The notes below the pieces were generated by a model that saw nothing but the letters and a program-made list of their open reading frames with translations, made no database searches and was not told the DNA's origin. A DNA stretch of 64,000 nucleotides from a bacterium (GTDB taxonomy: Bacteria > Acidobacteriota > Polarisedimenticolia > Polarisedimenticolales > Polarisedimenticolaceae), in the NCBI GenBank assembly GCA_024226515.1, contig JAAELQ010000116.1, positions 248,001 to 312,000 of the forward strand, in the 5' to 3' direction. Below, one piece after another: positions 60,368-64,000 of this stretch. Each line of letters opens with the position of its first letter. Position 1 is the stretch's first letter. Made by a program: the position numbers and the translations under genes.

Positions 60368-61177
60368 TTGGCCGACAATCAGGACGACTGTTCGCCCGAG
60401 TACCCGATTCTCCGCGAGAACCTCCCCCCAGAGGACATCGAGACGGGGAAGTACATCGTCCGTTTCGCGCGCGACGCGGGCGAGTTGGACGCGTTGCAGA
60501 GGCTGCGCTTCGACGTGTTCAACGTCGAGATGAAGGAAGGGTTCGACGAGTCGTGGGAGACACGGCGCGACGCAGACCGCTTCGACCCGTTTTGCCACCA
60601 CCTCGTCGTCATCGAGAAGGCCTCGGGCGACATCATCGGCACCTACCGCATGATGACGGGCGAGATGGCCGACCGGAATCACGGTTTCTACTCCGCCGAC
60701 GAGTTCAATCTGTCGGGCTTCCCGGACGAGATCCTGAGCAACTCGGTGGAGATCGGCCGGGCCAGCATCGCCAAGCCGTTCCGGAACCGGCAGGTGCTGT
60801 TCCTGCTGTTCCGCGGGCTCGCCCGCTACATGGTGCACAACCGGAAGCGGTACCTGTTCGGCTGCTGCTCGCTGACCAGCCAGGATCCGGCCGAGGGGCG
60901 TCGGGTGATGGACTATCTCGACGCCAGCGACCACGTTCACGGCTCGATTCGCATCGATCCGCAGCCGGACTGGCTGTGTTATCCCGAGGACGCGGACTCG
61001 CCGGCACCGGCGCACGAGGACGTGAAGCTGCCCAAGCTGTTCAGCCTCTACATGAGGATGGGAGCCCTGGTCGTCGGCCCGCCGGCCATCGACCGCTACT
61101 TCAAGACCATCGACTATCTGGTGCTGATCGACATCCAGGGGCTCGATCCGGTGACCCGCCGGCTGTACTTCGGGTGA
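60368..61177 (+). CDS. GNAT-fold N-acyltransferase (OlsB/hemolysin-like)
   Basis: 269 residues from a TTG with GGGAGG upstream. Core motifs: ELDALQRLRFDVFNVEM, DRFDPFCHHLVV, GTYRMMTGEMA and VEIGRASIAKPFRNR. These match the PF13444 acyltransferase group that includes OlsB, which N-acylates ornithine from acyl-ACP to start ornithine-lipid synthesis. The C-terminal IDRYFKTIDYLVLIDI is also typical. Ornithine lipids are one option; other amino-acid lipids are possible. No olsA neighbour is visible. Confidence 0.82.
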   Translation: MADNQDDCSPEYPILRENLPPEDIETGKYIVRFARDAGELDALQRLRFDVFNVEMKEGFDESWETRRDADRFDPFCHHLVVIEKASGDIIGTYRMMTGEMADRNHGFYSADEFNLSGFPDEILSNSVEIGRASIAKPFRNRQVLFLLFRGLARYMVHNRKRYLFGCCSLTSQDPAEGRRVMDYLDASDHVHGSIRIDPQPDWLCYPEDADSPAPAHEDVKLPKLFSLYMRMGALVVGPPAIDRYFKTIDYLVLIDIQGLDPVTRRLYFG

Positions 61178-61266: not shown

Positions 61267-61809
61267 ATGAACCTCGTGGAACACCCGGCCGGGCAGAGCA
61301 TTTACTTCCTGAAGCAGGGTTGCGATTTGCTGCGTCGCCTCGACGACGGGCTTTTCTCGCGCCAGGCGCCCGGGCCGTTCCGCGGCGGCGTGGGCGGCCA
61401 GTTCCGGCATTGCCTGGACTTCTACCGCTCTTTTCTGGACGGGATCGGGGCCGGCCGGGTCGATTACAGCGCCCGCGGGCGGGACCGTCGGACCGAGACC
61501 GACCGCGACCACGCCATCGCCGTGACCGAGGGTCTGATCGAGGGGCTGCTGGCCCTGACGCCGGCCCACGCCGAGACCCCGCTGGACGTCAAGCCCGAGC
61601 TGTCCGAACGCGAGGATCTCGCCTGGTCGCGCTCGACCGTGCAGCGCGAGCTGCAGTTCCTGGTCAGTCACACTATCCATCATTACGCTCTGATCGTGGC
61701 GCTGCTGATCGGCGAGGGATTCGACCTCGGCGACGAGTTCGCCGATTTCGGCGTGGCTCCTTCCACGCTGGGGCACTGGGAGACCGCCGGGCTGACAGCC
61801 GGTTCCTGA
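61267..61809 (+). CDS. DinB-like four-helix metalloprotein
   Basis: 180 residues. Four-helix bundle with conserved His in FRHCLDFYRS and HTIHHYALI, which together give a DinB-type metal site. The family includes thiol-dependent transferases (bacillithiol, mycothiol) and damage-inducible proteins; the fold does not set the substrate. Start ATG with AAGGA. The fusion gene at 61835 begins 25 bases downstream and is probably cotranscribed. Confidence 0.8.
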   Translation: MNLVEHPAGQSIYFLKQGCDLLRRLDDGLFSRQAPGPFRGGVGGQFRHCLDFYRSFLDGIGAGRVDYSARGRDRRTETDRDHAIAVTEGLIEGLLALTPAHAETPLDVKPELSEREDLAWSRSTVQRELQFLVSHTIHHYALIVALLIGEGFDLGDEFADFGVAPSTLGHWETAGLTAGS

Positions 61810-61834: not shown

Positions 61835-64000
61835 GTGGGCCGCATAGCTCGCATCCTGCTCGTTCTCTACTGCGTCCTGCTCGTGGTGTCGTGGGTCGTG
61901 CGCTGGGTGCGCAGCGACGAAGCGCCTCCGCCGACCGCGCCGTCGCTGGAGGTGGCCGCGGTCGACGGCGCGCGCACGACCGACGGGCGCGTGCGGCTGG
62001 TGTTCGACGAGCTGGGGCCGGACGAGGGGCCCGACGGCACCGCGGTCATCCTGTTGCACGGTAGCCCCGGAAACCGCCACGACTTTCGCAGCGCAGCGCC
62101 CGTGCTCGCTCGACGTCATCGAGTGATCGCGCCCGACCTGCCGGGCTTCGGCGAGTCGACGTTGCAGGTCCCGGACTACTCGCTCGTCGCGCACGCCGAC
62201 TACGTCCTGCAGCTGATGGACGCGCTCGCGATTCGCCGCGCGCACCTCGTGGGCTTCAGCATGGGCGGCGGCGTCGGCCTGTCGCTGTACGACCGGGCTC
62301 CCGACCGAGTCCTCTCGTTGACGCTGCTCTCGGCCATCGGCGTGCAGGAGCTGGAGCTGTTCGGCAACTACCCGATGAACCACGCCGTCCACGGCGCGCA
62401 GCTGGGCGGTATGTGGCTTCTGGTTCACGGGTTTCCGCACTTCGGCGGTCTGGACCGGGCGTTCTTCGGTCTGCCGTACTGCCGCAATTTCTACGACACC
62501 GACCAGCGCCCGCTGCGTGGGATCCTCGAGCGCTTCGAGCCGCCGATGCTGGTGGTGCACGGCGAGGACGACTTCCTCGTTCCGGCGCAGGCCGCGCGCG
62601 AGCACCACCGTGTCGTCCCGCACAGCGAGCTGCAGATGTTGCGCGGCAGTCACTTCCTGATCTTCCGCCGCGGCGAGGAGATCGGAGCGCGGCTGGCGCG
62701 CTTCGTCGGATCGGTCGACCGGGGGGAGGCGCCCGTCCGCGCGGGCGCCGAGGCGACGCGTGTCGTCGCCGCCGCGGGGCCGCGCTTGCCGCCGCCGCCG
62801 TTCACCGGTTTCGCGCTGATCCTGATGCTGGTCCTGATCGTCGTATCGACGCTGGTGACCGAGGACCTCACCTGCATCGGGGTCGGTCTGATGGTCGCGC
62901 AGGGCAGGTTGGAGTTCCTTCCCGGCGTCGCGGCCTGCTGCTTCGGGATCTTCATCGGCGATGTCGGACTGTACCTGGCGGGCCGCTGGCTGGGCCGTCC
63001 CGCGATCCGGCGCGCGCCGCTGCGCTGGATGATCGGAGTGGACAGCGTCGACGCGTCGTCCGATTGGTTCCGCCGCCGCGGGCCGATCGTCATCGTGCTC
63101 AGCCGCTTCGCCCCCGGCTTCCGCATCCCGACGTACTTCGCCGCGGGGCTGCTGCACACGAGCTTCCTCAAGTTCTGCGGCTACTTCGTCCTGGCGGTCG
63201 TGTTGTGGACACCCGCGCTGGTCGGCGCGGCGACGCTGGCCGGCGAAGGTGCGTTCGAGTATTTCGAGACGTTCCAGGAGCACGCGATCTGGGCCTTCGT
63301 CGCCCTCGGCCTGTGGATCTTGATCGTCGTCAAGCTGATCCTGCCGCTGTTCTCGTGGCGTGGACGGCGACGGATGGTCGGCCGCTGGCGCCGGCTGACG
63401 CGCTGGGAGTTCTGGCCGCCGTGGGTCTTCTACCCGCCCGTGCTGGCCTGGGTCGTGTGGCTCGGCATTCGCCACCGCAGCCCGTTGCTGTTCACCGCCG
63501 CGAACCCGGCGATCGAGGCCGGCGGTTTCATCTCGGAGTCGAAGTGGGAGATTCTGCGTGGGCTCGAGGACTCGGGCTCGTACATCGCCGCGGCGCAGCT
63601 CGTGCCGTGTGACGCGGACGTCGCGGCGCGTGCCGCCGTCGTGCGGTCGTTCATGACGTCGCGCGGCCTCGACTTCCCCGTGGTGCTCAAGCCCGACACC
63701 GGGCAGCGCGGCTCCGGGGTCGCCGTCGTGCGTGACGTCGCGGCGGTCGAGGCCTATCTGTCGGCGGCGCCGTACGAGGTCGTGGTCCAGGAGTACGTGC
63801 CCGGTCACGAGCTGGGGATCTTCTACGTTCGCCGTCCCGACGAGGACGAAGGACGCATCATCTCCATCACCGACAAACGGATGCCCGAGGTCGTGGGGGA
63901 CGGGCGAAGCACGGTCGAGGAGCTGATCCTGGCCGACCCGCGCGCGGTCGCGATGGCCGACCACTACCTCGCGGCGCAGGCCGCCCGCCGCGCCGACGTC
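61835..64000 (+). CDS. Alpha/beta hydrolase - DedA/VTT membrane domain - ATP-grasp fusion (partial, right edge)
   Basis: 722 codons are open from a GTG at 61835 to the edge. An N-terminal membrane anchor (about 5-24) precedes an alpha/beta hydrolase (about 55-295): HGSPGNRHDF, nucleophile VGFSMGGGVG (Ser near 145), acid HGEDDFLV, His GSHFLIF. Next a DedA/VTT domain (about 325-520) with FGIFIGDVGLYLAGRWLGR and SRFAPGFRIPTYFAAG, then two further spans. After a linker, an ATP-grasp domain (about 575-722) carries LKPDTGQRGSGVAVV, QEYVPGHELGIFYV and VGDGRSTVEELI. No stop separates the parts. The VTT part would sit in the inner membrane and the ligase would use ATP. The start lacks a Shine-Dalgarno, so the exact N-terminus is uncertain. 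Confidence 0.88.
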   Translation, partial: MGRIARILLVLYCVLLVVSWVVRWVRSDEAPPPTAPSLEVAAVDGARTTDGRVRLVFDELGPDEGPDGTAVILLHGSPGNRHDFRSAAPVLARRHRVIAPDLPGFGESTLQVPDYSLVAHADYVLQLMDALAIRRAHLVGFSMGGGVGLSLYDRAPDRVLSLTLLSAIGVQELELFGNYPMNHAVHGAQLGGMWLLVHGFPHFGGLDRAFFGLPYCRNFYDTDQRPLRGILERFEPPMLVVHGEDDFLVPAQAAREHHRVVPHSELQMLRGSHFLIFRRGEEIGARLARFVGSVDRGEAPVRAGAEATRVVAAAGPRLPPPPFTGFALILMLVLIVVSTLVTEDLTCIGVGLMVAQGRLEFLPGVAACCFGIFIGDVGLYLAGRWLGRPAIRRAPLRWMIGVDSVDASSDWFRRRGPIVIVLSRFAPGFRIPTYFAAGLLHTSFLKFCGYFVLAVVLWTPALVGAATLAGEGAFEYFETFQEHAIWAFVALGLWILIVVKLILPLFSWRGRRRMVGRWRRLTRWEFWPPWVFYPPVLAWVVWLGIRHRSPLLFTAANPAIEAGGFISESKWEILRGLEDSGSYIAAAQLVPCDADVAARAAVVRSFMTSRGLDFPVVLKPDTGQRGSGVAVVRDVAAVEAYLSAAPYEVVVQEYVPGHELGIFYVRRPDEDEGRIISITDKRMPEVVGDGRSTVEELILADPRAVAMADHYLAAQAARRADV

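Follow-up and report, generated by a model that had tools for sequence, protein, structure and literature searches.

The window, i.e. the entire 64,000-nucleotide stretch analysed here (positions 248001-312000 of its contig, in a 6.5 Mb genome of 320 contigs), ends inside a forward-strand gene for a three-domain membrane protein. The open frame begins with a GTG codon at window position 61835 and has no stop codon by 64000; extension of the contig to the right, as proposed in a preliminary description of the same DNA, located the stop of this frame 429 bases further on, at window-equivalent position 64429, completing a protein of 864 aa. From the N-terminus it comprises a membrane anchor (residues 4-22, 61844-61900, hydropathy peak 2.63), an alpha/beta-hydrolase domain (residues 60-290, 62012-62704), a VTT/DedA domain with the helix that follows it (residues 330-500, 62822-63334) and a membrane-attached ATP-grasp ligase domain (residues 557-864, of which 557-722 lie within the window at 63503-64000), the last preceded by a short hydrophobic element that opens with the motif WEFWP (residues 524-528, 63404-63418). 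The preliminary description had proposed a single polypeptide carrying these three domains, and this is confirmed by the one 864-aa frame and by 53 homologous triple fusions of like design. Upstream on the same strand lie the genes for an OlsB-family N-acyltransferase of 269 aa (60368-61177; PF13444, E=1.6e-28), the first gene of the cassette and two genes upstream of the fusion, and for a DinB-like protein of 180 aa (61267-61809; DinB_2, E=1.5e-5) separated from the fusion gene by 25 bases, giving an operon with the order OlsB, DinB, fusion.

The hydrolase domain matched Abhydrolase_1 (PF00561) over residues 70-171 (Pfam; E=7.9e-32, 111 bits against a cut-off of 25.8) and also PF12697 (Pfam; E=1.4e-16), and contains an HGSPG motif at residue 75. 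The complete catalytic triad noted in the preliminary description was borne out: Ser142 lies in a GFSMGG nucleophile elbow and is conserved in 47 of the 53 triple fusions, with Asp246 (49/53) and His273 (48/53) as its partners, so that the domain is predicted to be a serine hydrolase of the alpha/beta-hydrolase fold.

VTT proteins shift lipids from leaflet to leaflet. The middle domain belongs to the DedA/VTT family, as had been proposed, with a match to VTT_dom (PF09335) over residues 350-465 that exceeds the curated Pfam cut-off (E=3.1e-14, 53.9 bits against 33.9), and it thereby resembles the lipid transporters UptA, YqjA and TMEM41B, but differs from them in being fused at both ends. Its marked residues are E343, D376, R424, G428 and R430; E343 and R430 are present in all 53 triple fusions and R424 in 52 of 53, and aligning the 19 VTT-ATP-grasp proteins gave a consistent picture. 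In YqjA the essential residues are E39, D51, R130 and R136 (PMC7818093); E343 of the fusion matches YqjA by motif and the R424/R430 pair has the spacing of R130/R136, all being 98-100% conserved, whereas D51 has no evident counterpart. The preliminary description had considered a lipid or an undecaprenyl-linked substrate, of which the lipid is upheld by the OlsB-, OlsA- and OlsF-type acyltransferases described below. The undecaprenyl-linked substrate was rejected for lack of support, as the protein scored 51.6 bits against the 250 required by the equivalog model for UptA, the undecaprenyl-phosphate transporter (NCBIfam), and the neighbour families examined included no recognisable cell-wall or polyprenyl gene.

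For the ATP-grasp domain, the Pfam RimK match was weak (E=0.002, 18.2 bits against a cut-off of 21), and cyanophycin-synthetase models (NCBIfam) matched residues 608-698 with E-values of 1e-9 to 6e-9. A true cyanophycin synthetase was rejected, since the match is confined to those residues and the equivalog scores are far too low (36.9 bits against 877 and 34.4 against 850). An AlphaFold2 model of the homologous domain of locus L005 (12 sequences, pLDDT 87.5) had as its nearest solved folds in Foldseek cyanophycin synthetases and bifunctional glutathione synthetases (E 2e-11 to 4e-10, TM about 0.5), followed by D-Ala ligases, and a profile-to-PDB sequence search returned matches in a similar order. 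K619 and E659 are invariant in the 53 triple fusions and, with the GDG of residues 688-690, lie inside the window; D774, E793 and N795 (each 52/53) lie beyond its end. This fold, together with the conserved Lys, Mg-binding Glu and Asn, predicts an ATP-grasp ligase. Ligases of the cyanophycin/GshAB type form acyl phosphates that are then coupled to amines. The sequence GDGRSTVEELI at residues 688-698 (G688, D689 and G690 94-98% conserved) had been called cyanophycin/YheC-like; the cyanophycin-synthetase/GshAB-like character holds for both motif and fold, the pattern GDGxxTxxELI being shared with these enzymes, but YheC was not matched in any search. Identity is nevertheless approximately 20% and the TM-score about 0.53, and the fusion has no Mur-ligase part and carries the WEFWP element and a short helix in place of the pre-ATP-grasp domain. 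WEFWP is invariant in two homologue alignments, and stand-alone ATP-grasp homologues also carry the element, sometimes as WEYWP or YEFLP; for the L005 homologue AlphaFold2 predicts a helix of 13 residues here, not long enough to cross a membrane.

The side of the membrane on which the hydrolase lies was compared by hydropathy, charge bias and AlphaFold2 secondary structure, and the three disagree. The flanks of the anchor have mean charges of +2.6 on the N side and -0.4 on the C side across the 53 homologues, with the N side more positive in 45, which favours a periplasmic hydrolase, but the four long helices modelled between hydrolase and ATP-grasp domain in the L005 homologue, being an even number, would place hydrolase and ligase together in the cytoplasm. 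The published DedA model contains two inverted re-entrant loops (PMC7818093). The full-length model of the L005 homologue (pLDDT 85.9, pTM 0.54) is unreliable as to domain placement, and the matches listed in a full-length Foldseek search were mostly hydrolases, which is uninformative on the other two domains.

A scan of a genome collection returned 15 loci, 14 of which were clear homologues, many at full length, from the Acidobacteria, Rhodothermales, Gemmatimonadetes, Planctomycetota and Verrucomicrobia, along with ATP-grasp-only forms in Hydrocarboniphaga. Matches were present in 41 of 297 genomes in the window's own phylum, and an ATP-grasp-domain profile identified 7 of 249 genomes in the phylum of Hydrocarboniphaga, 21 of 199 in that of a planctomycete locus, 21 of 195 in that of a verrucomicrobial locus and 46 of 247 in that of the Rhodothermales locus (here called Bacteroidota). 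These genomes are a sample and many are metagenome-assembled. Searching genomes for the domain triplet, as the preliminary description had advised, resulted in a set of 91 loci comprising 53 hydrolase-VTT-ATP-grasp fusions, 19 VTT-ATP-grasp fusions, 18 ATP-grasp proteins alone and one hydrolase-ATP-grasp protein with a degenerate middle; the loci are not independent, as L011 and L068 are identical in the aligned domain and several others share one genus. Genes were taken as open frames with profile hits, with no gene caller, and the profiles were built from these same loci. The same three-domain order recurs in all 53 triple fusions across at least five phyla, which excludes a chance, frameshift or assembly join, and a second objection, that the domains are always separate in homologues, was likewise rejected, as most homologues are fused.

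Four Pseudomonadota loci (L192-L195) have VTT and ATP-grasp as touching but separate genes, and represent the unfused state. On a rapidly built ATP-grasp-domain tree, in which many inner branches are poorly supported, the architectures cluster yet require 15 changes between them, which implies that parts were repeatedly gained or lost. Six Bacteroidota-type fusions (L160-L165) have the catalytic serine of the hydrolase replaced by Gly or Lys, and in five of these (L160-L164) a separate alpha/beta-hydrolase with an intact elbow adjoins OlsB. Another fusion (L008:5623-8646) has a VTT domain without the conserved Asp376 and Arg424, at a locus without the usual neighbours, and is perhaps a decaying copy. 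Both this degenerate VTT domain and the dead-hydrolase group indicate that parts can be lost.

Conserved neighbours, a further check suggested in the preliminary description, were evident up to about 8 kb from the ATP-grasp gene. An OlsB-family N-acyltransferase was found near 65 of the 91 loci, a DinB-like gene near 64 and a TANGO2-family gene near 39, with at least one of the three near 85; an OlsA- or OlsF-type acyltransferase was nearby in 58. The cassette is conserved across Acidobacteriota, Planctomycetota, Verrucomicrobiota, Gemmatimonadota, Rhodothermota/Bacteroidota and Pseudomonadota, and gene order and strand vary, with OlsB before, after or on the strand opposite to the fusion, so that the linkage does not reflect inheritance of a single block. 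Two types of aminolipid synthase accompany the ATP-grasp gene, i.e. separate OlsB and OlsA (PF01553) genes and OlsF-like fusions (PF19576 with PF13444), the latter, in Hydrocarboniphaga and a planctomycete, reaching 387-389 bits with the OlsF model (E about 1e-115), below the equivalog cut-off. The OlsA-type neighbour matched lyso-ornithine-lipid O-acyltransferase models at 8e-39, also below their equivalog cut-offs. This conserved linkage with OlsB-, OlsA- and OlsF-type N- and O-acyltransferases marks an aminolipid cassette, and the association of the fusion protein with aminolipids is strong.

In the window genome, the OlsB-family gene is the only PF13444 gene found, and the OlsA-type gene is unlinked, on contig 151; it scores 286 bits with the OlsA-type profile of the cassette, and the runner-up reaches 83. 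The window OlsB belongs to the PF13444 family, and its E-value with OlsB models was 2.9e-36; its scores of 125 and 115 bits are far below the ornithine-lipid equivalog cut-offs of 320-350 (NCBIfam; 125 against 320 for the better), and the amino acid is therefore not assignable as ornithine. The cassette DinB proteins conserve H48, H135, H138 and H139 at 98-100%. Among Bacteroidota genomes, a strong PF13444 hit (E<1e-20) was present in 16 of 25 that carry a stand-alone ATP-grasp gene and in 3 of 20 that lack it (Fisher p=0.002, uncorrected for kinship, the comparison genomes being the first in a list and not a drawn sample). The remaining 9 of the 25 had no strong PF13444 hit, and the link to OlsB is thus not obligatory in that branch.

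The favoured reading of these observations, given an even chance of being right, is that the fusion protein is the membrane module of the aminolipid cassette, with the ATP-grasp domain extending the head group, the VTT domain flipping the lipid and the hydrolase trimming it. As expected from their families, the OlsB-family enzyme would acylate an amino acid at its amino group with a 3-hydroxyacyl chain, and a second acyl chain would come from the OlsA-type or OlsF-type enzyme. The WEFWP element would hold the ATP-grasp domain at the inner leaflet, where it would use ATP to activate a carboxylate, most probably the one left free on the lipid head group, and couple it to an amine, e.g. a second amino acid; the head group would thereby become amidated or of dipeptide type. 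Transfer of this product, or of its precursor, from one leaflet to the other would fall to the fused VTT domain, and trimming of an acyl ester or a head-group ester to the serine hydrolase. A membrane-anchored ATP-grasp beside OlsB and OlsA would most simply act on the free carboxyl of an aminolipid, and the nearest ATP-grasp folds, those of cyanophycin synthetase and GshAB, join amino acids, which by analogy may be counted towards such an extension. A point against this scheme is that it assigns no evident role to the DinB, YHS and TANGO2 neighbours.

The closest relatives of the ligase, GshAB, Ddl and cyanophycin synthetase, as a rule use soluble substrates, and the ATP-grasp could instead produce a soluble peptide, e.g. 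a dipeptide or thiol precursor, for subsequent acylation by the OlsB-family enzyme, while the VTT and hydrolase domains would work on the completed lipid or on another target. Ten Bacteroidota loci, in which a stand-alone ATP-grasp occurs with DinB and often TANGO2 and no nearby OlsB, would fit this explanation; however, a lipid substrate is favoured because the ATP-grasp is fused to VTT in 72 of the 91 loci and carries the membrane element even when it stands alone, and a soluble peptide product is judged rather unlikely. An improbable explanation is that the cassette serves lipid remodelling or stress, with acyltransferases, hydrolase and TANGO2 turning over acyl chains while the ATP-grasp attaches a tag to, or otherwise modifies, some protein or metabolite of metal or redox balance, for which the DinB histidines of a metal site and the Rieske/ferric-reductase-like and YHS-like genes near 23 and 20 loci, respectively, can be cited. 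Yet the Rieske and YHS genes are less constant than OlsB (65/91) and absent at the window locus, and no conserved candidate for a protein tag was seen among the neighbours. Least probable is that independent enzymes were fused for co-localisation only, with the hydrolase an accessory lacking a fixed place in the pathway; 37 of the 91 fusion or ATP-grasp proteins have no hydrolase, and the intact hydrolase beside OlsB in five of the six dead-hydrolase fusions points the same way, but retention of the serine in 47 of 53 fusions from several phyla counts against this.

Relative to known systems, the aminolipid reading is closest to ornithine, glycine and glutamine lipid synthesis (OlsB/OlsA, OlsF, GlsB/GlsA), with which the cassette shares PF13444 together with PF01553 or PF19576, although its enzymes fall below all equivalog cut-offs. 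In the consulted passages of a review (PMC11631085), OlsB links a 3-hydroxyacyl chain to an amino acid through an amide and OlsA or OlsF adds the second chain; beside these two acyltransferases, those passages name no partner of the ATP-grasp, VTT, DinB or TANGO2 kind. The open-access literature contained no description linking ATP-grasp with DedA, OlsB/ornithine lipid or aminolipid, none of an ornithine lipid-DedA association or a lipodipeptide ligase, and nothing on ATP-grasp with N-acetylglutaminylglutamine, an absence that is weak evidence with subscription journals outside its scope. Flavolipins are glycine-serine dipeptide aminolipids of Bacteroidota with a biosynthetic route recorded as unknown (PMC10191378), and building their head group would call for a ligase that uses ATP to add an amino acid to an acylated one. 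At least one genome (G954), however, has a short, GlsB-length PF13444 gene and no ATP-grasp. The fusion family may be regarded as a candidate, not an answer, for dipeptide-type aminolipid synthesis.

A broader proposition, possible but doubtful, is that the cassette represents an undescribed multi-phylum aminolipid pathway in which one membrane protein extends the head group by an ATP-dependent peptide bond, flips the lipid and hydrolyses it, with TANGO2 acting on the N-acyl amide in many lineages. If true, this pathway would account for the synthesis of dipeptide-type aminolipids and give a clue to the ancestral role of TANGO2. Aminolipids are widespread and the enzymes that extend their head groups poorly known, and the cassette supplies named genes for knock-out, including in the cultured Hydrocarboniphaga effusa AP103.

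TANGO2-family genes lie beside N-acyl amino-acid lipid enzymes at, for example, L009:5228-5968, L016:5267-5956, L167:8977-9687 and L193:9795-10544, tying bacterial homologues of this human disease protein to such lipids, and are absent from the window genome. The cassette members resemble the family in keeping Cys2 (95%) and the NRDE motif (98-100%). Human TANGO2 was recently proposed to be a cysteine Ntn-hydrolase (PMC13044924) and has been reported to bind acyl-CoA (PMC11867700), and the tie of bacterial homologues, with their N-terminal cysteine, to N-acyl amino-acid lipids fits both. At 20 loci, including Bacteroidota and Pseudomonadota, a YHS-like protein of approximately 150 aa, its family named by eye, accompanies DinB, TANGO2 or ATP-grasp (among them L166-L172, L174, L186, L192-L195 and L016:4293-4739). 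The Rieske and ferric-reductase-like membrane protein near 23 loci (e.g. L009:1194-2240, L059:8024-9091 and L062:12723-13793) suggests a redox partner of the cassette. In the window genome, a DUF5916/CBM9-like outer-membrane-type protein is encoded just downstream of the fusion (L003:12447-14822) and a similar one a few genes further on (L003:16019-18295), a pair that is not conserved in the neighbourhood of other loci.
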